Shown: one piece after another, positions 2,083 through 19,096 of the stretch
Position numbering within the stretch: position 1 is the stretch's first letter
Layout of the letters: each line of letters opens with the position of its first letter
Source of the DNA: a virus
IMG/VR virus record: IMGVR_UViG_3300025132_007932
Span: 1 to 64,000 of that record
DNA length: 64,000 bases
Reading direction: 5' to 3' (one strand)
Notes under the pieces: generated by a model
Seen by the model: only the letters and a program-made list of their open reading frames with translations
Databases searched by the model: none
What the model was told of the DNA's origin: nothing
Position numbers and translations under genes: made by a program

Positions 2083-3135
2083 ATGGCGCACAAATTTTTA
2101 TATATCTTGCTATGTTTTTTGACCGTATTGGGCTGCAGTCCCGATTATAGTATTGTTACCGGTAAAACAGAGACCATCATAAAAACTGAAACCGTGGTAG
2201 AAACAGAAACGGTAACCGAAGAGGTTGAGATACCTGTTTATATAGAAGTCGAAGTTCCGGTATATATTGACACCGGGTTTGATGATCCTGGTTTAGTGTG
2301 GGTTGACTCTTTTACTCAACCAAATACTGTAGATGGTATTGACATTTTATGGGTTATTGATACTTCCGGCTCAATGCATAGATTTGATGCTCAGTTAATG
2401 GCCGGTATAGGTGTAATGTTGGGAGCATTGCCTCCCACTAGTTGGCGATTGGCTATGATATCAAATGATCCAATGCGTGCAGTTGCTGAAAATCAGTTTC
2501 CTTTAGTTCCGGGTGATGATGTTGTCGACGCCGAAGCAATGTATAGTGCGATGGGTCGGGGAGGTATGGAAAAGGGTTTTGATGCCGTATATGAGTATAT
2601 TATTAATAATTCATATTCTGGCACTTGGATGAGACCAGATGCGGGGCTTTTAGTGGTCTTTGTCTCCGATGAACAGGAGCAAAGTGACGATCACTTTTCT
2701 GATGAATATGATTTTATTAGTTGGTATGGTGGGCTTCGTGGTGGATCTGTATTTCTTGCTAGTATTGTAAATCAAGAACCAACCGAGTCATTATGTGACA
2801 GTTGGGTTAGTCCAATAGACGTGGGAACAAGATATATGGATGCCACAAATGCGTTTGCTGGCAATATTATCGATATTTGTGCAGACGATTGGACAGCCGG
2901 AGTTGCTGATGCTGCGGCTTCTATTGAGCCTCACGAAAAATGGGAACTTAAGCATCAGGCCATAACAGATTCTGTCAGAGTTTTTATGAACAGCGCACTA
3001 GTAGAACCTGGAATATCAACCTGGTCTTATTCGGAAACGGATAACACGGTTTATTTCCACACTATCCCGCCAGGAAGTACATTAGTAGAGATTGGATATA
3101 GGTATTACGAAGAGGAGGATGACACCGGTGCTTAA
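2083..3135 (+). CDS. VWA-domain lipoprotein
   Basis: A 350-aa exported lipoprotein. Residues 1-18 form a signal peptide ending in the lipobox VLGC with Cys18 as lipidation site. Residues 29-64 are low-complexity repeats of TET and then PVYI units, likely a stalk. A von Willebrand factor A domain follows, with the MIDAS motif DTSGS at 93-97 and a later Asp in FVSDEQ. VWA domains bind ligands through a metal ion. A phage-encoded, membrane-anchored VWA protein would sit in the host envelope. The 3' end overlaps the next gene, a secreted protease, which suggests co-translation and possibly a joint role. Target unknown. Confidence 0.75.
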   Translation: MAHKFLYILLCFLTVLGCSPDYSIVTGKTETIIKTETVVETETVTEEVEIPVYIEVEVPVYIDTGFDDPGLVWVDSFTQPNTVDGIDILWVIDTSGSMHRFDAQLMAGIGVMLGALPPTSWRLAMISNDPMRAVAENQFPLVPGDDVVDAEAMYSAMGRGGMEKGFDAVYEYIINNSYSGTWMRPDAGLLVVFVSDEQEQSDDHFSDEYDFISWYGGLRGGSVFLASIVNQEPTESLCDSWVSPIDVGTRYMDATNAFAGNIIDICADDWTAGVADAAASIEPHEKWELKHQAITDSVRVFMNSALVEPGISTWSYSETDNTVYFHTIPPGSTLVEIGYRYYEEEDDTGA

Positions 3136-3862
3136 ATTATTTACAATCATTTTATTTTTATTAACAGGGGTATCGCATGCAAACGTGTCTGATTACGCAC
3201 CTTCTTTGCCTGTAGATCACATCGAAACGATAAATAGTTCAGTTGAAAAGAGAGTACGGTCAGCTGCTGTAAGAGTTACAGAACCTTTTTCTGGGGGCCA
3301 CGGATCTGGTTCCTACATAAAATACAAAGATGTTAATTTGGTATTTACAGCACAACATGTTGCAGATGGTATTTTAGGAGTAAAATATTTAGTTATACAC
3401 AAACAAGAGTCACATATAGGTACGCTCATATATTCAGACAAAGCAAATGATATAGCTATACTATATTTAGGAACACCGTTCAGAACAATTGAACCAATGA
3501 AATATGAACCTCTAGACAAAGTTGCCAGCGTTGGAACAAATATAATATATTCAGGATACCCTTCATCTCACAAACTTATGTCATTTAGTGGTAGAGTTGC
3601 TGGCTACGCTGATGGGCCGGGTATTGGTAATCATATAATACTTCAAACATACGGCTGGTTTGGGTGTTCGGGTTCTGTAATTTATGATACAAAAGGGCGC
3701 CAAGTGGGTATATTATATGGCGTAGACGTTGAGTACTATCCAGATATGCAAGTTCAAGAAAACATGATTTGGGTGGCGCCAATAACAAAAGTCAATATAG
3801 ACAGGGCCCTTAGAAATTTTTGTAGGGGGTATCAAGGAAAAGATCCCAAAGCTTGTAAATGA
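3128..3862 (+). CDS. Secreted trypsin-like serine protease
   Basis: A 244-aa protein if translation starts at GTG 3128, chosen because AGGAGG (3113-3118) lies 9 nt upstream; the ATG at 3119 abuts that site and is too close. Residues 1-18 are a cleavable signal peptide ending in SHA. The chymotrypsin-like triad is visible: His77 in FTAQH, Asp108 in ANDIA and Ser181 in GCSGS, with normal spacing. The product should act in the periplasm or outside the cell. It overlaps the VWA lipoprotein gene by 8 nt and the Nudix gene by 4 nt, so all three are probably co-translated. Substrate unknown; candidates are host envelope proteins or superinfection receptors. Confidence 0.8.
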   Translation: MLKLFTIILFLLTGVSHANVSDYAPSLPVDHIETINSSVEKRVRSAAVRVTEPFSGGHGSGSYIKYKDVNLVFTAQHVADGILGVKYLVIHKQESHIGTLIYSDKANDIAILYLGTPFRTIEPMKYEPLDKVASVGTNIIYSGYPSSHKLMSFSGRVAGYADGPGIGNHIILQTYGWFGCSGSVIYDTKGRQVGILYGVDVEYYPDMQVQENMIWVAPITKVNIDRALRNFCRGYQGKDPKACK

Positions 3863-4308
3863 AATATAAGTGGAATAAGTTTCTCACGGAAGGTGAGAAG
3901 AAAACAGTAGGAATTGTTGTTTGTCTTAATGATAAGCAACAATTTTTGATTTTAAGGCGTTCTAATATTGATGACAGAGCTGGTTCTTGGACAATACCAG
4001 GTGGACATATCGACGATAAAGATAATTCAATAGAAGCCGGCGCCGTTAGAGAGCTTGAAGAAGAGGCCGGCCTGTCTTGTAAATTAAGTGATTTAAAATA
4101 TCTCGGAGAGCCAAAGAAGGGAAAACACTATTTTTTGACTCAAAAGTGGGCTGGAGAAGTAAATGTCGATATCCCAAATCCAGAGACAGGTGAAATAGAG
4201 CATGATGCATACAAGTGGCTAACGATTAATGATATAAAAGACATAGAAGATACTGAAATTCCGATCTATTTATTGGAGAAAGCTTTGGAAATGTCTAAAA
4301 ATGAATGA
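3859..4308 (+). CDS. Nudix hydrolase
   Basis: A 149-aa Nudix protein, hydrolysing a nucleoside diphosphate linked to another group. The Nudix box is seen as GGHIDD then RELEEEAGL (about residues 48-72); the usual Glu eight residues before the Arg is Asn here, with an acidic stretch just before it, so the loop is slightly altered. Length is normal. The C-terminus overlaps the next ORF by 8 nt. Substrate cannot be told from sequence; phage Nudix enzymes can act on NAD, ADP-ribose, dinucleoside polyphosphates or RNA caps. Confidence 0.8.
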   Translation: MKYKWNKFLTEGEKKTVGIVVCLNDKQQFLILRRSNIDDRAGSWTIPGGHIDDKDNSIEAGAVRELEEEAGLSCKLSDLKYLGEPKKGKHYFLTQKWAGEVNVDIPNPETGEIEHDAYKWLTINDIKDIEDTEIPIYLLEKALEMSKNE

Positions 4309-5347
4309 TTTATATGATAATCTTGACGAAAAAAAGAAAAAAGCCGGCTCTGAGTCAAGCAAAGAGTCTTCCCTAAGAGATTGGTTTGGAAGAAAGGGAG
4401 CTAAAGGCTCCAAAAAAGGCTGGGTTGACTGCAACGCACCCGACGGCAGCGGTGGCTATAAGTCTTGTGGTCGAGGATCCGGCGAAAGTCGTAAAAAATA
4501 TCCCGCTTGTCGGCCGACACCTGGTGCCTGTAAAGAAAGAGGCAGAGGAAAGTCGTGGGGAAAAAAAGGAAAATCTAAAAAAAATGAGGAATTACAAATG
4601 AATTTAGAAAAAATTGTTCGTGAAGAACTTGAAGCAGTTTTTCTAGAGTCTCACTCGAAAGAAGATGAGAAAGAACTTAAAAAAATATCTAAAGAACTCC
4701 ACGGAGCTTCGAAAATGCATAAAGGGCAGGCAGACAGAATTGATAAAATTCTTGATAGCACTGAAGATGACGACTTAAAAGAAGAAAATGAAGTCGACGA
4801 AGGTATGAACTGTGGCTGTGGAAACGACCCTTGTAAAACTTATGGCAAGAATAATGAAAAAATTATTGTTACAATTAAAGAAGAATTAGAGGCTGTTCTT
4901 GACGAGAAGAAAAAGAAGAAAGCCAAGAAAGATGCTTGCTATAATAAAGTAAAATCACGCTATAAAGTGTGGCCTAGCGCATATGCCTCTGGTGCTTTAG
5001 TAAAATGTCGCAAGGTTGGCGCCGCGAATTGGGGTAATTCTAAGAAAGAGTCTCTACAAATCATGATTGAAGATGAATTAACTCAAGTTTTAGATGAAGA
5101 AAAGAAAAAACCTTGCAAACCCTCCAAAGGAAAGCGTTTTGCTAAGCGCGTAGACGGTAAATGTCGCTCATATGGGCAGAAAGGACAAGCAAAAGGCGGT
5201 GGAGACCGTATTAGACCTGGTACTGCAAAGGGCGATGCTTACTGCGCACGATCTGCAAAGATTAAAAAGTGTAAAAATCCCCCTTGTGCTAACGCATTAT
5301 CCCGCAAAAAGTGGAAATGCCGCGGCTCCAAGTCAATGAAAGAGTAA
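4301..5347 (+). CDS. Modular Cys/Lys-rich multi-domain protein
   Basis: A 348-aa protein made of at least three small basic Cys-containing modules: residues about 25-80 (WFGRKGAKGSKKGWVDC ... ACRPTPGACK), about 200-245 (ACYNKVKSRYKVWPSAYASG, a type I recall as DUF5872) and about 270-345 (KGKRFAKRVDGKCRSYG ... CKNPPCANAL). Helical linkers with a common pattern precede modules: IVREELEAVF, IKEELEAVLDE and IEDELTQVLDE. The linkers end in LxE, the T4 prohead-protease cleavage pattern, so the protein may be a processed virion polyprotein (inference). An internal ATG at 4598 has a GAGGA site. Net charge is strongly positive, which suits DNA binding. Confidence 0.65.
   Translation: MNDLYDNLDEKKKKAGSESSKESSLRDWFGRKGAKGSKKGWVDCNAPDGSGGYKSCGRGSGESRKKYPACRPTPGACKERGRGKSWGKKGKSKKNEELQMNLEKIVREELEAVFLESHSKEDEKELKKISKELHGASKMHKGQADRIDKILDSTEDDDLKEENEVDEGMNCGCGNDPCKTYGKNNEKIIVTIKEELEAVLDEKKKKKAKKDACYNKVKSRYKVWPSAYASGALVKCRKVGAANWGNSKKESLQIMIEDELTQVLDEEKKKPCKPSKGKRFAKRVDGKCRSYGQKGQAKGGGDRIRPGTAKGDAYCARSAKIKKCKNPPCANALSRKKWKCRGSKSMKE
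4585..4600 (+). promoter_or_regulatory. Possible internal ribosome-binding site and start
   Basis: GAGGA followed 7 nt later by an in-frame ATG (4598) lies inside the modular protein. Starting there would give a product beginning MNLEKIVREELEAV, exactly at a linker helix and without the first Cys module. Linker positions and the start coincide, which argues for real use, but it could also be chance in a Glu/Lys-rich coding region. Confidence 0.35.
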
Positions 5348-5351
5348 ATAA

Positions 5352-7784
5352 ATGCTAAATGATGAGCAAATTCTATTAAAAACAGCCAATCTTCTGGATA
5401 CTTTGCAAGAAAAGTGCTGGGATGGATATAAACAAGTCGGAATGAAGAAGAAAAGTGGCAAAAATGTGCCAAATTGTGTCCCTGTTAATGAAAAAGTGCT
5501 CCGAGAAGTAACCGAAGACGAGATGCGAGTGCTTGAAGACGTGTTGGACGACCTAAATCCAGCAAATTTACCCTTAAATGACCTTTTTAGCAACAAAATG
5601 CGCGTTGTTATACCGTTTCCGACCACTGATCCAAGTTCAGATCTTGGAAAGTTCTCAGAATTCTTCAGATCTCAAGAGTATGATGTAGATTGGGAGAAAG
5701 GGATGGTGTATGCCGAGCGTGATCTGCGCACATCAGACGATTTTCTTGATACTTTAATGGGTGGATCTGAACCAAAGAAGAAAACTAAGAAGATTCAGAT
5801 GAAAATCGGCAAGCTTTTCTCCAAATTGGCTGATTTAAGCAAAAGAAAAGACGAAATATACCAAAAAGTCTATAAACACATGGATAATGCCAACTATAAG
5901 CTAGCAGATGGTGGACCAGTTAACACACCACGAAGAGTTACCGGAAAAATGCTGAAAGCAGCGCTCGATGAAAAAGAATACGAGAATTTTCAGAGAATTA
6001 ACACTCAAATTAACTTATATGTCGTAAATCCGGGTGTCGCAGGCCCAGCAGGCTATGATTTAACCGATTTAGCCACTAAATACGGCGAATATTGGAAAAA
6101 GAACGCTGGATTCATCAAAAAAGAGATAAATAGCCTTGATAATGACAAATATTCCATTATTATCACTCGACATCCAATAGATGTACTCAGAATGAGTGAT
6201 TTTGACACAATTACTTCTTGTCATTCTCCAGCTAGTCGTCAAAATGCCTATCAATCCTACTATAAATGCGCTGTAGCCGAGGCTCAGGGCCATGGAGCCG
6301 TAGCATACGTGGTTGAGACAGAAGACCTTCTGAGCGCCACTGATACGGGTAATATTGATAGTGCAGAGCAAGAAATTCAAGAAGGCGAGATATTTGCTGA
6401 CGATAAACGTCCATTTAGCGGTGATATTGAGCCAATTTCTCGCACACGCATCCGTCATGTTAGATATTATGAAGGTGACGAGCCTCCAAAGCGTTGGGAT
6501 GATGGACAAGACGTTGGAATGCCCGAAAAGCGCGTCTATGGTGTCGATATTCCCGGTTTAACTAATAGAGTTACTGATTGGGCGAGATCAAACCAAGAAG
6601 AAGTCATAGCAAATATGCCTAAAAATGATAATGGCATTATTGATCTTAATAAATTTATGATTTTTGGTGGCTCTTACGAAGATACTGCAAATGCTGCTGG
6701 TCGTGAAAGATTAATGAGACAGTTATTGGGTGCACAAGCTCTCGTTAGCGGCAATATGAAACAAAACACAGACACTGAAGATGATCTGGATGCTAATTTA
6801 GTTGGCGACATTATCGCACAATACGAAGGGCAGTGCGAAGAGATAATGAATGAGTACAATAATAGGATGGCTCAAACATATTCTGACTATGAAGTTGGAG
6901 ATGATGGTGGTGAGGGTGCTTATATCAGACCCTTCGCAGCATTTATTGCGAAGTGGCCGGTTGATGAGTGGAAAAGACTACCCGGTAATCAAGAAGAAGT
7001 TGTGTGGAACTCTGTCGATGAGGTGATTGCGATATATGGTGATATATTTGAAGACTCCAACAACTATACACCTGTTATTCGTCGTGTTCGCGAAGAAATA
7101 CACTTGACTATGAAGATTAACTTTGAGCATCCTGACATTTATGGTAACGGTTATATGGCAATGCCAGAAGAATACAGAGACGCGCTTGAAAACATTGATG
7201 TAATAATCGACGACAGAAGAGATGCTTTTGAGGCTGTTCTCACTGATTACTTCAAGCGTGAAGGACAAATGGAAGGTGGTACATATATGAATCTTGCTAT
7301 GTCCATCGAAGACGGAGCACTTACCTCATATGAATGGGATCTAGAAACTGATGGAGAATACTCTGAATCATATGAATCGTCTGCACGATATACACACTAC
7401 TATGATCCAGAAGACTTAGGATTGGGGATTGAGGTGCTAAAACAGATTGTTGATTCTCGCGACTTTAGAATTGAATTGAGAAAACAACTTTTAGAAGCGC
7501 CAAGAAAAGAAATAAATACTCAATATTATTTATCTATGAATGCAATAACAGTAGACCAGAGCGGAGAGGTCGCATTTACCGCTGTATTCACGATTAACGC
7601 TGATGAGCCTGACCTTATGGCTGAGTTGTTTCAAGAGCTTGTAGAGGGTGAAATGGACGATGAAGATAACCTTAATGTGATATTTAATAGAGTATTAGCT
7701 CAGTTTGTTAATTCTCGCCGGCCATCGCATATGCAAACAAACGAAAACCTCGTAAAAACGTGGAAAGGATTTCTAAACTCATGA
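5352..7784 (+). CDS. Large protein, likely virion-associated (810 aa)
   Basis: An 810-aa acidic protein of unknown function. Its N-terminus has CWDGYKQVGMKKKSG and VPNCVP, a Cys-flanked motif I recall from T4-like marine phage proteins, and it follows another basic Cys-module protein. No enzyme motif is recognised; the middle is mixed alpha/beta with many acidic stretches. The C-terminus reads ENLVKTWKGFL, which resembles the LLENWRKFI leader of the genes at 8.7-10.4 kb but sits at the opposite end. The gene ends in an ATGA overlap with the next. An internal virion role is an inference from context. Confidence 0.55.
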   Translation: MLNDEQILLKTANLLDTLQEKCWDGYKQVGMKKKSGKNVPNCVPVNEKVLREVTEDEMRVLEDVLDDLNPANLPLNDLFSNKMRVVIPFPTTDPSSDLGKFSEFFRSQEYDVDWEKGMVYAERDLRTSDDFLDTLMGGSEPKKKTKKIQMKIGKLFSKLADLSKRKDEIYQKVYKHMDNANYKLADGGPVNTPRRVTGKMLKAALDEKEYENFQRINTQINLYVVNPGVAGPAGYDLTDLATKYGEYWKKNAGFIKKEINSLDNDKYSIIITRHPIDVLRMSDFDTITSCHSPASRQNAYQSYYKCAVAEAQGHGAVAYVVETEDLLSATDTGNIDSAEQEIQEGEIFADDKRPFSGDIEPISRTRIRHVRYYEGDEPPKRWDDGQDVGMPEKRVYGVDIPGLTNRVTDWARSNQEEVIANMPKNDNGIIDLNKFMIFGGSYEDTANAAGRERLMRQLLGAQALVSGNMKQNTDTEDDLDANLVGDIIAQYEGQCEEIMNEYNNRMAQTYSDYEVGDDGGEGAYIRPFAAFIAKWPVDEWKRLPGNQEEVVWNSVDEVIAIYGDIFEDSNNYTPVIRRVREEIHLTMKINFEHPDIYGNGYMAMPEEYRDALENIDVIIDDRRDAFEAVLTDYFKREGQMEGGTYMNLAMSIEDGALTSYEWDLETDGEYSESYESSARYTHYYDPEDLGLGIEVLKQIVDSRDFRIELRKQLLEAPRKEINTQYYLSMNAITVDQSGEVAFTAVFTINADEPDLMAELFQELVEGEMDDEDNLNVIFNRVLAQFVNSRRPSHMQTNENLVKTWKGFLNS

Positions 7785-8385: not shown

Positions 8386-8738
8386 TGTTTCCTTTATTTT
8401 TTGAAAACAGTAAAATTCCAGTATGGTTATCTAAGCTGGCTCCAATTGAAATAAATGCGCTAAGTTTTTTTATTTTTGTTTTCTCGCGAGGAGAATTAGA
8501 TGAAAGAGTAAGAAGACATGAAACGATTCACTACAAACAGCAAGTTGAAATGTTGTTTATTTTTCAATGGATTATGTATGCTTATTTTCATTTAAACGGG
8601 CTGCTTTCGGGACTTAGCGGTTCTGACGCTTACTATGTTAATCCTTTTGAGCTTGAGGCATATGATAATGACGAAAAAGAAAACTATTTAAATGAAAGAA
8701 AAGCATATGCTTGGATAAAATACTGGAAAGAAATGTGA
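8385..8738 (+). CDS. Small HExxH metallopeptidase-like protein
   Basis: A 117-aa protein with HETIH at residues 45-49, the zinc-binding and catalytic motif of metallopeptidases, within RRHETIHYKQQVEML. A third ligand is probably one of the acidic residues in NPFELEAYDND, about 50 residues on. The segment after the motif (LFIFQWIMYAYFHL) is membrane-like. Similar proteins occur in T4-like marine phages (recalled). Its stop overlaps the start of the first leader-bearing gene. Substrate unknown. Confidence 0.65.
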   Translation: MFPLFFENSKIPVWLSKLAPIEINALSFFIFVFSRGELDERVRRHETIHYKQQVEMLFIFQWIMYAYFHLNGLLSGLSGSDAYYVNPFELEAYDNDEKENYLNERKAYAWIKYWKEM

Positions 8739-9760
8739 AACTAATACTTGAAAATTGGCGCCAATATGTAGCTGAGAGCGAACAAGCATCTCACTATGGT
8801 GATTTGTATTTGTTTGAAAATGATACAGTCACTAAAACATCTTTTTATGATGCTCTCAATACTTTATCTGAATCAAATGGCGCCGTCGATACATTTTTAG
8901 AAAACTGGGAAAAATCTGTTGACCACCAATTACAAAATTTAAATGAACAAGAATTTAGTCCACTTTTTAAATTAGCAACCCAAGCTTGGATGATACAAAA
9001 CAAATTTAAAGAGAAAGCGGCCGAAAAGGTTATTGCTGTCAGCAAAAAGATTAATGATTTTTCTGAAAAGAATCCAAAGACTGTAAAGGTAGCCAAAGTA
9101 GTTGTGGGTGGATTACTTGCTGCGGCCGCTGTTTATTATATTTATAAAGTTGTTGATAAGGGCGGTGATGCATCCGATGTTATGGAGTTGGCCCAGTCAT
9201 TACAACCAGAAGATCCCGATTTAGCTCGGGAAGTAGCTGAATGTGCACAAGAGTTTAGTCCAGAAAAGATAGCAGAGTTCGCGCAAGAGCAACAAGGTGT
9301 TGTTGATAAAGTAGCAGACACACTTTCGGCCGCTGGTGAACCTGCGCTAGATCAAATGGGGCAAGCAGCAGAAGCAGTTTCTGATGATATGACACAAGAA
9401 GTGTCTGGTTTAGATCGTTGGGCGGAGATGTTTGATTCTGGTGAGTTTGGGAAAGCAACAGATGCGCCCGAACTGACAGATAAAGAAGCTAGAGATACTT
9501 GGGATCAGCTCACGGGCCAAAAAGATTTTGCTAATGATCCATCATATAAGCCGGGTGGTGGAGATAAAGGATTAGACGATTGGGCCAAAATTTGGGATAA
9601 AGAATATGGCCCAGGGGAAGATCCAGTAGCTAGACCCTCAAGAGTTCCACAAACCCCAGACGAGGCGGCTGCATGGGAAGATCTTATTGCACAAGACCGG
9701 GCTGATAGCATGCCTAAAACAAAGCCTAGAAAATGGCCATTTAAGAAGTTTAGTAAATGA
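8735..9760 (+). CDS. Leader-bearing membrane protein, candidate capsid cargo 1
   Basis: A 341-aa protein starting at GTG 8735, chosen because the downstream leader KLILENWRQYVAE then begins at residue 2, exactly as in the next two genes; it overlaps the preceding stop. The leader resembles the T4 internal-protein capsid-targeting sequence, with a VxE cut site after residue 14. Residues about 110-132 (VVVGGLLAAAAVYYIYKVV) form one transmembrane helix. The rest is acidic, helical and disordered with a basic C-terminal tail. If packaged, it could be delivered with the DNA and insert into the membrane (inference). Confidence 0.65.
   Translation: MKLILENWRQYVAESEQASHYGDLYLFENDTVTKTSFYDALNTLSESNGAVDTFLENWEKSVDHQLQNLNEQEFSPLFKLATQAWMIQNKFKEKAAEKVIAVSKKINDFSEKNPKTVKVAKVVVGGLLAAAAVYYIYKVVDKGGDASDVMELAQSLQPEDPDLAREVAECAQEFSPEKIAEFAQEQQGVVDKVADTLSAAGEPALDQMGQAAEAVSDDMTQEVSGLDRWAEMFDSGEFGKATDAPELTDKEARDTWDQLTGQKDFANDPSYKPGGGDKGLDDWAKIWDKEYGPGEDPVARPSRVPQTPDEAAAWEDLIAQDRADSMPKTKPRKWPFKKFSK
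8736..8761 (+). repeat. Leader repeat copy 1
   Basis: DNA encoding the start of the leader. It matches copies 2 and 3 (9758 and 10447) except for three positions, while the genes beyond the leader are unrelated in sequence. The gene start is a GTG whose last two bases begin the repeat. Confidence 0.7.
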
Positions 9761-10449
9761 AACTCCTACTTGAAAATTGGCGAGGGTATTTAAGCGAGCA
9801 GAGGTCTGCCGAAAATCTTGTAGAAGAAATTTGGGCAGGTAATTATGTTACTGAAATACTCATAATAGAAGAGCAACAGAGATTGCTTGACGAGAGTATT
9901 GGATCGTTTTTTAGTAATTCTTTTAACTCAGTAAAAAAACAGATACAAAGTTTCAACGATTGGAAGGATAACCAGTTGATGTCCTTTGTTGACGCGTCAC
10001 TAAAAAAATTACAAAGCTTTTTTTCCAGCATGCGAACAATTGCAGTAAAAACAAAAAACAATATTCTTTTAAAACTATTTCCAAAATATAGATCCAGGCA
10101 AATAGTTCAAGCTTTTGGAGTGTTGAGAAGTCCAAAATACTTAAAAGCTGGTGCGGCGATATTAGCGATAGTTTTGCAAAAACTAGTTGAACTTGGAGCT
10201 AAAGCTATATTAGATACCATGTCTGGGGGAGTTGCTAGTGCAGCAAAAATTGCTGCCTTTGTACAACAAAATTTAGAAAAAATAAAGCTATTAATTCAAA
10301 CAGTTGTTACTGCGTTGGATCCGAGCGGTATTTTATCAATGTTAAAGGATGTGGCAGAATCTCAAGGCTGGTTACAAACTTTGATTGATTTAAGAAGTGA
10401 TTTAAAAAACCCTTTCAAGGGTTTTGAAAAAGGCATTGCTAGCGCGTGA
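9757..10449 (+). CDS. Leader-bearing helical protein, candidate capsid cargo 2
   Basis: A 230-aa protein starting at an ATG that overlaps the preceding TGA. The leader LLLENWRGYLSE gives an LxE cut after residue 14. The body is basic and helical, with an amphipathic/hydrophobic segment at about residues 128-160 (LKAGAAILAIVLQKLVEL and following) that could insert in a membrane. No enzyme motif is seen. Sharing the leader and tight coupling with its neighbours suggests co-packaging. Function unknown. Confidence 0.65.
   Translation: MKLLLENWRGYLSEQRSAENLVEEIWAGNYVTEILIIEEQQRLLDESIGSFFSNSFNSVKKQIQSFNDWKDNQLMSFVDASLKKLQSFFSSMRTIAVKTKNNILLKLFPKYRSRQIVQAFGVLRSPKYLKAGAAILAIVLQKLVELGAKAILDTMSGGVASAAKIAAFVQQNLEKIKLLIQTVVTALDPSGILSMLKDVAESQGWLQTLIDLRSDLKNPFKGFEKGIASA
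9758..9783 (+). repeat. Leader repeat copy 2
   Basis: A 26-bp stretch identical to 10447-10472, encoding most of the leader peptide. Identity at DNA level, including synonymous positions, points to recent duplication or gene conversion of the leader. Confidence 0.85.
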
Positions 10450-11132
10450 AACTCCTACTTGAAAATTGGCGAAAGTTTATCGCGGAAAATTATGAGCCCG
10501 TAACTACTCTGCGTATTTTTGATTTTGATGAGACAATAGCACACACCGAATCAGAAACACGTGTCACGGCGCCGGATGGTTCAACTGCCACATTGCGAGA
10601 TCAAAAAGAATTTGAGGAATACATGAACGCAGCTGCAGAAAAAGAAGGTATAGATTCTTTCGATGCAGTTGATGGATTAATTAATGCTGGATACAAGATA
10701 GACCTCAGTGACTTTTCTATTGTAAAAAATCCTCTTGAGATTAAATTAGTCACGGACGTACTAAGAAACTTTTCAGAAAATTCTAGAACCTATATTTTAA
10801 CAGCTCGAAGAGGCAAGTCTCTTGGACCAATTTTAGACTACCTTGATGAAATAGGAATTGATTCATCTAAAATTAGACCGATTGCAACCGCAGGAGAATC
10901 GAAGGGCGATGTTATGGTAAAAATGTTAAGTAATAAAATTATGCCTGATGGAAAATCAAACATCAATCGTATTGAATATTACGAAGATTCTCAAAAAAAT
11001 ATTGATGATGTGCTGACAAAAGTTTGCGATAATCCCGAAATAAATGACGTTAAACCATTAGATTTTGAGTTGGTCATAAACAAAGTCATTAATAATGGTG
11101 GTCAGTATACTGTTGAGAAGATTAAATGCTAG
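10446..11132 (+). CDS. Leader-bearing HAD-family phosphatase, candidate capsid cargo 3
   Basis: A 228-aa protein starting at GTG 10446, overlapping the previous stop. Residues 2-14 (KLLLENWRKFIAE) match the other leaders and end in FIAE, as T4 internal-protein leaders do. The HAD nucleophile motif I is DFDET at 26-30 (Asp26 nucleophile, Asp28 acid/base), only 12 residues past the predicted cut. Motif II is the Thr/Ser of ILTARRG near residue 118 and motif III/IV acidic residues in EYYEDSQ. A phosphatase or phosphotransferase acting on a small molecule, nucleotide or polynucleotide end is likely. An enzyme inside a phage head would be unusual. Confidence 0.7.
   Translation: MKLLLENWRKFIAENYEPVTTLRIFDFDETIAHTESETRVTAPDGSTATLRDQKEFEEYMNAAAEKEGIDSFDAVDGLINAGYKIDLSDFSIVKNPLEIKLVTDVLRNFSENSRTYILTARRGKSLGPILDYLDEIGIDSSKIRPIATAGESKGDVMVKMLSNKIMPDGKSNINRIEYYEDSQKNIDDVLTKVCDNPEINDVKPLDFELVINKVINNGGQYTVEKIKC
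10447..10472 (+). repeat. Leader repeat copy 3
   Basis: Identical over 26 bp to 9758-9783. See copy 2. Confidence 0.85.
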
Positions 11133-11167
11133 TCTGATAACTAATTAAGAGAGTTGGAGGGCGAATT

Positions 11168-11491
11168 ATGGCACCTAGTGAAAATGGATGGAATGAATAC
11201 TCTAGACTTGTTTTAGAGCAACTTGAATCATTATCAATCGGCATTGATGCATTGAGAGATGAGCTACAAGATATAAAGCAAGAAATGACTTTAATGAAAG
11301 CAAAAGAAGATCGTGTTATTGATTTAAAAAATTGGAAAGAACGTATTGATGAGGTCGCATCGCCGCCGCAACTTAAAAACGCTTTAAAAGAAATAGAAGA
11401 TTTGAAAATATTCAAAACAAAAGCGATAACTATTTTTATGATAGCACAAGCTTTAACTGGCTTTATTTTAGCTTATGCTCATATAATTTAA
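11168..11491 (+). CDS. Coiled-coil protein with C-terminal membrane anchor
   Basis: A 107-aa protein with a good ribosome-binding site (TTGGAGGG). Residues about 10-80 are a heptad-like helix (LEQLESLSIGIDALRDEL ... LKNWKERIDEV), and residues 88-105 a transmembrane helix. The layout matches small phage proteins with a coiled coil plus C-terminal anchor, like XhlA-type or spanin/holin-accessory proteins. Topology: cytosolic coiled coil, C-terminus in the membrane. Function not certain. Confidence 0.65.
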   Translation: MAPSENGWNEYSRLVLEQLESLSIGIDALRDELQDIKQEMTLMKAKEDRVIDLKNWKERIDEVASPPQLKNALKEIEDLKIFKTKAITIFMIAQALTGFILAYAHII

Positions 11492-11492
11492 T

Positions 11493-11521
11493 TTGCATTT
11501 TTTTGTAAAATATGTTATAAG
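11493..11521 (+). promoter_or_regulatory. sigma70-type promoter
   Basis: TTGCAT (11493-11498), 17-nt spacer, TATAAG (11516-11521). The predicted transcription start is around 11528, essentially on the ATG of the next gene (11527). No Shine-Dalgarno precedes that gene, so its mRNA may be leaderless. Confidence 0.55.
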
Positions 11522-11526
11522 TTATT

Positions 11527-11802
11527 ATGAAAAATTATAAAATAGGAGATTTAGTAGGATTTAAATGGCCCGGTCACAATAAACATTTGCGGGTGGGAAT
11601 AATTTTGCAAAATTCTAAGAAAAAGTTTATTGTTAAGTGGTTCTGGTATGATAAAAACTTCTATTTGGAGAACCAGTTTAGTGAAGCCAAAAAATTGAAT
11701 AAAAAATATATCACCAGTATTGTTGAATATACTAAAAAAAGTGACGATATTTGCATAGAAATATTGAGTGATGCAAATTCTAGTTACTTATATGGCACCT
11801 AA
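11527..11802 (+). CDS. Small GDLV-type protein
   Basis: A 91-aa basic protein. KIGDLVGFKWPGHNKHLRVG then IILQNSKKKFIVKWFWYD is the clearest version of the GDLV core here: strand, loop, 'VGIIL' strand, Trp-rich strand. No ribosome-binding site is visible and the predicted promoter start coincides with the ATG. Function unknown; SH3-like barrel inferred. Confidence 0.6.
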   Translation: MKNYKIGDLVGFKWPGHNKHLRVGIILQNSKKKFIVKWFWYDKNFYLENQFSEAKKLNKKYITSIVEYTKKSDDICIEILSDANSSYLYGT

Positions 11803-12082
11803 ACCGTTAGACATAGATGAAATTAAAAGAATAATTAGGCAAATTTCTGGTAAGCTAGAACCAGATGATGGCCCATTGATTGTTCCCTGTATAATTGTAG
11901 GAAAAGGACATATTTGGTGCTATAATCCGAGAAACAGAGATATGGTAAGAATTCTCAGAGGAACGAAAGTGTTTATTGTTGACAGCAGGGTTGATTCAGA
12001 AAATAGAGTCATGATCTATGCAGAGACTGGAGAGATTGCCTTAATTGAACAAGATGAACTTTTAGTGTTAGGATTTAATTAA
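11792..12082 (+). CDS. Small beta-rich protein
   Basis: A 96-aa protein beginning MAPKPLDIDEIKR. The start at 11792 keeps overlap with the previous gene small; an in-frame ATG at 11768 is the alternative. The body is beta-rich (IVPCIIVGKGHIWCYN, MIYAETGEIALIEQDELLVL), resembling an SH3/OB-like barrel and possibly a distant relative of the GDLV set. Function unknown. Confidence 0.55.
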   Translation: MAPKPLDIDEIKRIIRQISGKLEPDDGPLIVPCIIVGKGHIWCYNPRNRDMVRILRGTKVFIVDSRVDSENRVMIYAETGEIALIEQDELLVLGFN

Positions 12083-12222
12083 TGTTATTTGCTTTTGATA
12101 ATATTTGGAAAACTATTTTAATTTTGGGTGGCGCCTGGGCTATTTATGGGTTGTGTGGATATGAATTCACGGTAATTACTTTATTGGCTGCCTTGTTATC
12201 CCGTGCACTTGTTTGTCGCTAG
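12082..12222 (+). CDS. 46-aa membrane micropeptide
   Basis: A short gene starting at an ATG that shares a base with the preceding TAA. The product is two hydrophobic stretches, ILILGGAWAIYGLCG and VITLLAALLS, around a YEFT turn, ending RALVCR. A two-helix membrane peptide is likely. An AGGA site lies 8 nt before the start. Function unknown. Confidence 0.5.
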   Translation: MLFAFDNIWKTILILGGAWAIYGLCGYEFTVITLLAALLSRALVCR

Positions 12223-12235
12223 CTTTAATTATAAT

Positions 12236-12499
12236 ATGGAAAAAGAATTAAGTTTTGGAGAATTAGCCGCTCAAGATCTAAATCCCGGAGATATTGTCGA
12301 ATGGCAAACTTGGGACAGTAGAGACAGCGCTTGGGAATCAAATTACGGAATAATTATTGAGATAAAAAACCAGATCAAATCTAATCGCATGATTTCGGTT
12401 TCAAAAGTTATGCCACTAAGCGGACCAAAAATTGAATTAGAGTTTTTTACAATGAGTTTAAAGCTTGTTTCTAAGTCAGATAAAAGTCATCTGACGTAA
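12236..12499 (+). CDS. Small GDLV-type protein
   Basis: An 87-aa acidic protein; the ATG at 12236 is preferred over one at 12203, which would overlap the micropeptide. The core LNPGDIVEWQTWDSRDSAW then NYGIIIEIKNQI matches the GDLV pattern with the aromatic strand placed earlier. No Shine-Dalgarno. Function unknown. Confidence 0.55.
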   Translation: MEKELSFGELAAQDLNPGDIVEWQTWDSRDSAWESNYGIIIEIKNQIKSNRMISVSKVMPLSGPKIELEFFTMSLKLVSKSDKSHLT

Positions 12500-12541
12500 A
12501 TGAACATTCAATACTATTTATTGCATTGACTTGGAATTCAT

Positions 12542-13657
12542 ATGATTGATACATTGATGCCATTAATAAAACAGTTTATGCCTTTTGCAAAAAAACGTAT
12601 GGGATTTGCGGATCCTCCCAGATTGTTTTTAAAAGGAGATTCCAATAATGCTAAAAATCCTTTGGGAAAAACAGCTTTTTACGATCCGGAGCAAAAGTCA
12701 ATTACGGTATATACTACTGGCCGGCATCCAAAAGACGTTATGAGGTCCTTATCTCACGAATTAGTTCATCACAAACAGAATTGTGATGGCAAATTCGAAA
12801 ACGTTGGAGAAATGGGCGAGGGATACGCTCAGAGTGATGAACATTTGAGAGAAATGGAGCGCGAAGCTTACGAAATAGGCAATATGTGCTTTCGTGATTG
12901 GGAAGACAGCATAAAGAGTACTATTTACTTTGAACATCTACAAAAGGGAGAAAAAAAGATGTCTATAAAAGATTGGAAAAATAACGAATTAAACAAACTT
13001 CTTAACGAAGCTTGGGGTTTTAAATTTAACACCCTACAAGAATTTGAAGAATTTGACGGCGCTGGAGAAGTGCAGGAGGAAGCCGAAGTTCAAGAAGAAG
13101 CTGAAAAGCCGGACTACATTGATATTGATGGTGACGGCGACAAGGAAGAGTCAATGAAAAAGGCTGCGGCAGACAAGAAAGAGAAGAAAGGTGTGGATGA
13201 AGGTGCTTTTTCACCAAACCACTACTGTGTACACCATGGTGGTGTGGAAAGAAACGGCCAGATTGAAATGGCAGAAGCAGTCGGACACAACTATGATCAA
13301 GAGCTTGGAAAAGTCACGCACTATGATATGAAGTTTGAAGACGGAACAATTTCGGAAGGGGTACCCTACGATAGCATTCAAGTCACTAACGCTTCATTAG
13401 CAGAAGCCCACAGCCACTCTATGGCAAAAAGAGATGATGACGAGGATGATAAGGAAGATCTTGATGAATCACCTTCGCACCCTGCGGAAGATAGGGAAGG
13501 TGCACGTGCAACCGGTCGTAGAATAAAGAAAGGAACTGGTGAGCGCGTAGAGGAAATTATCAGCAATTCTAACTTGAGTGACAAGCAAATCAAGGAAGCT
13601 TTGATGAAGGCTATTAAAATAGTTAAGGAAAGAAAAGCAAATGGGCAGGAAAAGTAA
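12542..13657 (+). CDS. Zinc metalloprotease-like fusion protein
   Basis: A 371-aa protein in two parts. Residues 1-139 hold the zinc motif HELVH (72-76) in SLSHELVHHKQ, with acidic and aromatic residues in GEGY ... EREAYEIG as likely third ligand region. Residues about 140-371 are a separate acidic region with LLNEAWGF, an IDIDGDGDKE stretch and a domain around NHYCVHHGGVERNG. Large Glu-rich linkers separate them. An internal start at 12959 could make the C-terminal part alone. Similar proteins exist in T4-like marine phages (recalled). Substrate unknown. Confidence 0.65.
   Translation: MIDTLMPLIKQFMPFAKKRMGFADPPRLFLKGDSNNAKNPLGKTAFYDPEQKSITVYTTGRHPKDVMRSLSHELVHHKQNCDGKFENVGEMGEGYAQSDEHLREMEREAYEIGNMCFRDWEDSIKSTIYFEHLQKGEKKMSIKDWKNNELNKLLNEAWGFKFNTLQEFEEFDGAGEVQEEAEVQEEAEKPDYIDIDGDGDKEESMKKAAADKKEKKGVDEGAFSPNHYCVHHGGVERNGQIEMAEAVGHNYDQELGKVTHYDMKFEDGTISEGVPYDSIQVTNASLAEAHSHSMAKRDDDEDDKEDLDESPSHPAEDREGARATGRRIKKGTGERVEEIISNSNLSDKQIKEALMKAIKIVKERKANGQEK
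12944..12961 (+). promoter_or_regulatory. Possible internal ribosome-binding site and start
   Basis: AAGGGAG (12944-12950) is followed 8 nt later by an in-frame ATG (12959). It lies at the junction between the HExxH part and the C-terminal part, and would yield a 232-aa protein beginning MSIKDWKNNELNKLLNEA. Its quality exceeds that of the main start at 12542. Confidence 0.45.
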
Positions 13658-13743
13658 AAGTTGAGACTCGAATCGAACTCAAAAAACTTAAACAAAAATT
13701 TATTTTGGACTTATTATGGCTTCAACAAATGGAGGGCGCACAA

Positions 13744-13995
13744 GTGTCTTTAGAAAAAAACTGGCAAGATTTTCTCTATGAGAGTTTAGATGAAAAGACT
13801 ATTTTTACTTATATTCAAGGTCTCGAAGAAATTATTTCCAATCTCAAACCACGAACCGTGACTGAGAAAAGAAGAATGTCTTTAGCTAAACAACACTTAA
13901 GAGAAGTGAAGAGATATGCTAGGCGTATGCAAGGCGATATGCGAGTCTTACAAGAAAAACTTAGTATTCTAGAAGAGTCTAAGGGAGACGAGTAA
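13744..13995 (+). CDS. Leader-like small helical protein
   Basis: An 83-aa protein. The GTG at 13744 is chosen because GGAGGG lies 7 nt upstream, and it gives an N-terminus SLEKNWQDFLYE that echoes the LLLENWRKFIAE leader, with an LxE site ending at residue 13. The rest is helical and basic (RRMSLAKQHLREVKRYARRM). An upstream ATG at 13705 has no ribosome-binding site. The start codon of the next gene overlaps its stop. A head-internal role is an inference from the leader. Confidence 0.6.
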   Translation: MSLEKNWQDFLYESLDEKTIFTYIQGLEEIISNLKPRTVTEKRRMSLAKQHLREVKRYARRMQGDMRVLQEKLSILEESKGDE

Positions 13996-18559: not shown

Positions 18560-18768
18560 TGTGGAAAATTTATAAATGGAATGGCCACTATATTCAAGGC
18601 GATTTTGTTAGTAAGCACACTAGTGAAGATGCTGCATTGAAAAAAGCAGCTAAAGAAATAGATTTCACTTTTGCAGAAAAGGTGAAAAGAGGAAAAGAAA
18701 CTTTAATTTGGCTAGATGGTACAGACCATACGCCAGTTGGGGTTATTGTTAAAAAATCTCGGGGGTGA
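18559..18768 (+). CDS. Small hypothetical protein ending inside the tmRNA
   Basis: A 69-aa basic protein, starting ATGTGG at the previous TAA. Composition WKIYKWNGHYIQGDF and PVGVIVKKSRG suggests a small beta-rich fold. Its last codons and TGA stop (18766-18768) lie within the first 8 nt of the tmRNA. Function unknown. Confidence 0.6.
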   Translation: MWKIYKWNGHYIQGDFVSKHTSEDAALKKAAKEIDFTFAEKVKRGKETLIWLDGTDHTPVGVIVKKSRG

Positions 18769-19096
18769 TTTAGGCTTCGACGTGGTATTGAATGAGTCGA
18801 GTGCAAGCAGGTTAGACACGGCCTTAACAGTTCAAATAATTTAGTTGCAAATAACAACTTACACTTCGAACAGCGCTTAGCCGCTTAATAGGGAGGCCGA
18901 TTAGAGCCTTCTATCCAATCTAGTCAAAACAACAGACAAGTTGTAAAAATCAAAAAACTTATCGCAACAGGATGGTAAGCGATATTTTAAAACCATCTAT
19001 CTTTGTCAGTTTATGATATAGAAACTGAATAAGCTTGTGAATGACTTAACTTTGGATTTATTACGGACGCGGGTTCGACTCCCGCCGCCTCCACCA
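18761..19096 (+). ncRNA. ssrA: Phage transfer-messenger RNA
   Basis: A one-piece tmRNA of about 336 nt. The 5' GGGGGTG pairs with CGCCTCC (19086-19092) as a 7-bp acceptor stem with two G-U wobbles, followed by A and encoded CCA (19094-19096). GGCTTCGACG (18773-18782) is the conserved D-like region and 19069-19085 is a perfect T arm with TTCGACT loop. The tag reading frame begins at GCA 18847 and ends in tandem stops TAA TAG (18886-18891), giving ANNNLHFEQRLAA, ending in the LAA recognised by ClpXP. It would free stalled ribosomes and tag truncated proteins. Phage tmRNAs are known but rare. Confidence 0.95.
18847..18891 (+). other. tmRNA proteolysis-tag reading frame
   Basis: Thirteen codons GCA to GCT followed by TAA and TAG. 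The tag is ANNNLHFEQRLAA; with the alanine carried by the tmRNA itself the added peptide is 14 residues. The region before it (TTTAGTT) resembles the usual resume-site context. Confidence 0.9.

Follow-up and report, generated by a model that had tools for sequence, protein, structure and literature searches.

A common N-terminal leader on unrelated phage proteins, a probable capsid-targeting signal of the T4 kind

The DNA analysed here, called the window throughout, comprises positions 1-64,000 of a linear 98,424-bp IMG/VR record (IMGVR_UViG_3300025132_007932) from a phage whose baseplate and tail genes are T4-like. Three tandem genes starting at 8735, 9757 and 10446 open with a common leader, MKLxLENWRxxxxE (type A), behind which their products diverge completely, and in related phages the same leader precedes 113 unrelated families of mature protein parts. 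This N-terminus is most probably a leader for capsid targeting as in T4, borne by proteins that would be packaged and probably injected, much as the first-pass annotation had proposed. The evidence comes from sequence comparison: the leader stands on unrelated proteins, its conservation ends abruptly at a site of the gp21 class, its spacing of key residues matches that of T4, homologous cargos (the parts behind the leader) bear varying leaders, and leader-bearing genes are associated with those of the prohead.

As the head is assembled, the leader (residues 2-14, probably folded as a short helix) would dock the protein into the prohead core, where a gp21-type protease would cut behind [L/I/V]-x-E, with the cut at residue 14 or the one following. 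The freed cargo would then remain in the head with the DNA, its injection at infection being probable. We infer docking, cleavage, packaging and injection alike by analogy with T4.

Type A leaders in the window and in related viruses

Copy 1 (8735..8776, plus strand, as are the other leaders, cargos and leaderless genes located below in the window) reads VKLILENWRQYVAE followed by SEQ, from a GTG start with an upstream TTG at 8711 also possible; copy 2 (9757..9798) reads MKLLLENWRGYLSE followed by QRS; and copy 3 (10446..10487, GTG start) reads VKLLLENWRKFIAE followed by NYE. As first described, an identical block of exactly 26 bp occurs in copy 2 (9758-9783) and copy 3 (10447-10472), and copy 1 has 16 bp (TACTTGAAAATTGGCG) in common with both. 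The start codons are supported by relatives, in which homologues have ATG at the same residue; those of the copy 1 gene in loci L008, L061 and L128 open with MKLLLENWRQYLNE, MKLILENWRQYLNE and MKLLMENWRKFVAE, respectively. The looser fourth copy that had been pointed out at 13744 is real: an 83-aa protein begins with VSLEKNWQDFLYE (13744..13782) followed by SLD, and this shorter form, MSLxxxWxxFL(x)E, is kept in 26/26 members of its family. A fifth copy, also of short form and missed at first, occupies 3859..3891 (MKYKWNKFLTE, then GEK) on a NUDIX hydrolase gene (3859-4308), in which the domain match starts at residue 15. The core W[RKQN]x[FY][LIVM]xE thus occurs within the first 40 residues of five window genes, with site residues VAE, LSE, IAE, LYE and LTE, compared with a mean of 0.015 and a maximum of 1 for shuffled proteins (2000 shuffles).

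Beyond the record, homologues of the gene at 10446 were found in 13 viral loci, and a degenerate DNA pattern for residues 1-9 only retrieved at least 119 IMG/VR stretches with up to five copies each. Matches to the leader core among 2235 distinct reading frames lie overwhelmingly at the start codon (307/324, with 17 elsewhere), and the mature parts behind type A form 113 groups without BLAST relationship. When one member of each family is aligned, W8 is invariant and M1, K2, E6 and E14 are nearly so, with no consensus after E14. The 26 bp shared by copies 2 and 3 could be taken to mean that the tandem genes are recent duplicates which have diverged except at their starts, but mature parts belonging to families as unrelated as NUDIX, kinase, DUF192, 2H phosphoesterase and exonuclease domains, together with homologues of single cargos that carry a different leader or none, make such an origin extremely unlikely. 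When 257 Gb of bacterial and archaeal contigs were scanned once, the pattern matched twice, in neither case at the opening of a leader-bearing gene; both matches soon meet stops, and by our estimate their number is about that expected by chance.

The end of the leader and its link to prohead genes

In loci selected by residues 1-9 only, type A leaders carry 3.4, 2.1 and 2.0 bits of information at residues 11, 12 and 14, falling to 0.44 bits at residue 15 and about 0.15 from residue 17 on. Of 170 leaders, 150 have [LIVM]xE with its glutamate at residue 14 or 15, compared with 3.5% at control positions 20-45. Substrates of T4 gp21 are cut after L/I-x-E, and incorporation of IPIII needs its first ten residues only, with targeting mainly via residues 4 and 7 and processing via residues 8 and 10 (PMC9026906). 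The common start of T4 IPII and IPIII is MKTYQEFIAE (database record), and counting back from the glutamate, Y4, F7, I8 and E10 of T4 correspond to W8, Y/F11, L/I12 and E14 here, an alignment by spacing that is no proof of common descent.

A single S77 (gp21-type) prohead protease and a gp23-type capsid protein are encoded in 7/7 tested relatives larger than 180 kb. Where the N-termini of the capsid proteins are readable, the predicted end of the delta region, by analogy with T4 gp23, is LLRE/ATAMN, LLRE/SSSMS or LLKE/ASTLG. In ten relatives, 12 of the 40 genes no more than two places from the protease bear a leader (11 type A and one of a second type, B, described below), versus 11/252 among the other genes of G004, the sole genome read throughout (P=8e-8; the two-place limit was set after the loci had been seen). 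These neighbours occupy the place of the T4 prohead core genes 67, 68 and 22, and are essentially unrelated to each other past the leader; as judged from their sequences, it is the leader that the locus preserves and not the protein.

Several observations weigh against capsid targeting with cleavage. The protease is known only from relatives, the whole 98,424-bp record having been searched for one and none found, nor did a portal, terminase or capsid gene stand out when the record's reading frames were read; the head genes were therefore sought in relatives. In 3/10 of the genomes no protease neighbour carries a leader. The [LIVM]xE motif is missing in 20 of the 170 pattern-selected leaders, residue 12 of copy 1 is V rather than L/I, and the homologue of the copy 3 protein in L005 (MEPIFENWRKFVTQ) has lost E14. 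The residue after E14 is A, S or G in 23% (background 19%) and D or E in 35%, so that the small residue typical of capsid sites is not preferred. With such residues in this position, some leaders may be cut inefficiently or not at all, and cutting is for this reason the weakest step of the scheme.

The same lack of preference would suit an uncleaved docking tag for some other common partner, such as a phage RNA polymerase or the membrane, and a short helix with a tryptophan could bind many partners. Such a tag would not account for the conservation of L/I12 and E14, the end of conservation directly behind them, or the enrichment of leader genes beside the prohead protease, and we consider it unlikely.

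The T4 internal proteins IPI, IPII and IPIII offer the closest parallel in form, in that a short N-terminal leader finishing in L/I-x-E stands on otherwise unrelated proteins, with leader DNA identical over the first 32 nt in IPII and IPIII (26 bp here), and with a gp21-type protease and a gp23-type capsid protein, found here in the relatives. The T4 leader has 10 residues rather than 14, and Tyr rather than Trp at the targeting position. At least ten T-even internal proteins have been reported, those of T4 being inhibitors of restriction enzymes (PMC12373910), versus 113 cargo families here, where enzymes as cargo, two interchangeable leaders and the lack of preference for a small residue after E14 are peculiarities. 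What appears new relative to the T-even system is how many cargos there are and that enzymes are among them, the interchangeable leaders, the leader on protease neighbours and the conservation at the DNA level. T4 Alt, an ADP-ribosyltransferase, is likewise an enzyme that is packaged and cut at its N-terminus, as is presumed for the cargos here, and it also loses a C-terminal propeptide (PMC5694885); the window gene at 5352 has a tail resembling the leader core (see below), whereas an ADP-ribosyltransferase among the cargos could not be proved. In phiKZ and SPN3US, head proteins are also processed after glutamate by a gp21 relative. Two otherwise diverged SPN3US proteins have an identical 15-residue start (PMC5694885), whereas its propeptides are mostly long (several exceed 100 residues) and have the motif A-x-E, compared with a short leader and [L/I/V]-x-E here.

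Among named phages, Microcystis phage Mel-JY01 and Flavobacterium phage immuto give the top matches to the window's baseplate wedge protein (~30% identity). Mel-JY01, the nearest by this protein, has both the protease and the capsid protein (predicted site LISE/ANRTG), and no type A leader was seen in it. The cultured phage immuto, whose capsid protein ranks it first among named relatives (45% identity over 64%), has common starts of its own on unrelated genes (MKKSxLxxIIxEL-like, and MENFDLKKFLVENKLT) and a deoxyribonucleotidase that has a homologue among the type A cargos, whereas the MKLLLENWR leader was not noticed in the stretches read (~130/160 kb). With leader families of its own and one cargo type in common, immuto would allow the idea to be tested directly. 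Its MENFDLKKFLVENKLT start, the third leader-like start observed, occurs at L313:1803, L311:3806, L311:17631 and L311:18632 on apparently unrelated genes.

Exchange of leaders and their DNA

The second leader, type B (MKITKxQLKQIIKEEL...), opens five genes in G004. Two further genes of this kind lie at positions 92993 and 93364 of the window's record, beyond the window, and were missed in the first-pass annotation. A pattern for its residues 1-10 retrieved at least 120 stretches, in which residues 11-16 (IIKEEL) are conserved though outside the pattern, with weaker conservation to about residue 22. In most relatives, a small gene downstream of the protease (L158-L164) starts with MKKxDLKxxIKPLVKECIxEVLLEEG, which resembles the type B leader; this gene may be the source of type B.

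Homologous cargos differ between phages in their leader, which is type A, type B or absent. One cargo, with 95% protein identity between the two loci, bears type A in L028, and its start in L096 is type B-like; the two DNAs match from the codons for leader residues 13-14 onwards. Many apparently leaderless homologues prove to have degenerate leaders outside the search pattern, and clear cases alone were used. In the window, the gene at 4301..5347 is leaderless, and at L038:793-1896 in a relative a 71% identical protein follows directly on a type A leader to which it is fused; similarly, the gene at 5352..7784 has no N-terminal leader and its homologue L133:3448-5904 opens with MQNFNNIWKNFLTEG. 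By these comparisons the leader is a portable module, which unrelated genes gain, lose and swap. Given this portability, the cluster at 8.7-11.1 kb is read as a locus of cargo genes comparable to the loci of T-even internal proteins, which were reportedly the subject of a 1994 study.

Two further features of these leaderless genes were observed. The gene at 4301-5347 looks modular and precursor-like, with basic Cys/Lys-rich blocks between stretches ending in AVFLE, AVLDE and QVLDE (LxE-like). The gene at 5352 and its L133 homologue both end in tails resembling the leader core (VKTWKGFL and VNTWKDFL); in the window the tail, VKTWKGFLNS, lies at 7740-7784, and a comparable one, ITWKNYKNRKKKLA, is found at L002:14266-14308.

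The DNA of the type A leader is itself unusually constant. With each family weighted once, codons 3-5 and 9 are CTC in 50%, CTA in 62%, CTT in 87% and CGA in 52%, versus 7, 16, 21 and 12% at other gene starts of the same loci, and the codons used for residues 12-14 are close to background. The 24 nt after ATG are identical in at least one member of 27/108 families, and positions 9757-9783 of copy 2 represent the commonest 27-nt form. Orphan leader reading frames of 11 codons stand directly before another gene in six loci and are apparently of two kinds; reading MKLLLENWRG[I/M/L]-stop (L005:7634, L055:2167, L063:3537, also L122, L057 and L108), they resemble empty leader slots.

Both the codon choice, which departs widely from background and from the starts of other genes, and the orphan frames would fit a conserved DNA or mRNA start region, for instance the site of a translational regulator, with the peptide as its by-product. 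Against this, the protein is conserved to residue 14 despite the near-background codons at 12-14, leaders beside the protease hold the peptide pattern with other residues and other DNA, and a search of the window's record and of G004 showed no antisense partner for the leader DNA, so that the peptide as by-product is very unlikely.

For a leader acting in capsid targeting, the constancy of 27 nt at synonymous sites across unrelated genes and phages suggests cassette exchange: it is possible either that cassettes of leader and cargo spread by recombination at this block, or that the nucleotide sequence itself is selected. Because the DNA is constant at synonymous sites, orphan "empty" leaders exist, and cargos occur behind either leader type or behind none, we tentatively propose that the first 27 nt serve as a recombination handle, leader and cargo then forming an exchangeable cassette within an open-ended system by which new effectors would be loaded into the virion. 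A test for homogenisation of leaders within genomes was negative, the codon excess inside a locus (0.68 vs 0.59) being matched at control residues 10-14 (0.61 vs 0.55); in view of this result and of the missing antisense partner, recombination of cassettes is held to be no firmer than possible.

Cargo identities and other features of the window

Pfam searches of the cargos returned NUDIX (3e-20), DUF192 (4e-31), 2H-SAK phosphoesterase (1e-19), a tRNA-ligase-type 2H domain (1e-6), protein kinase (1e-7) and RNase T-type exonuclease (9e-6), with acetyltransferases matching more weakly, and PHROGs added a 5'-3' deoxyribonucleotidase and ParB-like proteins; the majority gave no informative match in either. 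Injected proteins have been established for few phages because virion proteomics is required. If the leader is indeed a targeting signal, it can be read from sequence, and a genome scan would list candidate delivered proteins: 113 candidate cargo families in one phage group, including kinases, NUDIX hydrolases, HAD- and deoxyribonucleotidase-type phosphatases, 2H phosphoesterases, an exonuclease, acetyltransferases and many of no recognised kind. As the T4 internal proteins inhibit restriction enzymes, the cargos are candidates for early counter-defence or host takeover.

Cargo 3 (10488..11132), previously called a HAD phosphatase, belongs to a leader-bearing family of 39, and the HAD assignment is moderately supported. 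In its favour are a DxDxT motif (DFDETIA) and a confident AlphaFold model (pLDDT 88.9), in which the leader is predicted as a helix of lower confidence; on the other side, there is no Pfam match and the Foldseek matches in the PDB are weak, with the HAD enzymes Ceg4, P4 and MDP-1 at E ~0.002-0.02 among many methyltransferases. Residues D26, D28, T30, T119 and D181 are invariant in 34 homologues, as are W8 and E14 of the leader. No homologues were found in named phages.

The membrane segments ascribed to the other two tandem genes differ in plausibility. Cargo 1 (8777..9760, mature part 327 aa) has one hydrophobic segment (VVVGGLLAAAAVYYIYKVV) with a 19-residue hydropathy of 1.89, which makes a membrane segment plausible, and a Pfam and PHROG search with it gave nothing convincing. 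The case is weaker for cargo 2 (9799..10449, 216 aa), a basic protein with a moderately hydrophobic segment (1.73) and a homologue in L017.

An ADP-ribosyltransferase was also considered among the cargos on account of YHGTS-like starts. The best Pfam match was a weak one to KptA (0.034), a sequence search of the PDB was empty and the AlphaFold model reached a pLDDT of 36; lacking support from any of the three, the assignment was dropped.

Elsewhere in the window, ARAGORN called a tmRNA gene at 18761-19096 with the tag ANNNLHFEQRLAA. As judged from translations only, a gene for a secreted von Willebrand-type protein followed by one for a trypsin-like protease lies at 2083-3862, and a long series of sugar-nucleotide, glycosyltransferase and epimerase-like genes at 26657-46894 suggests phage-encoded glycan synthesis.

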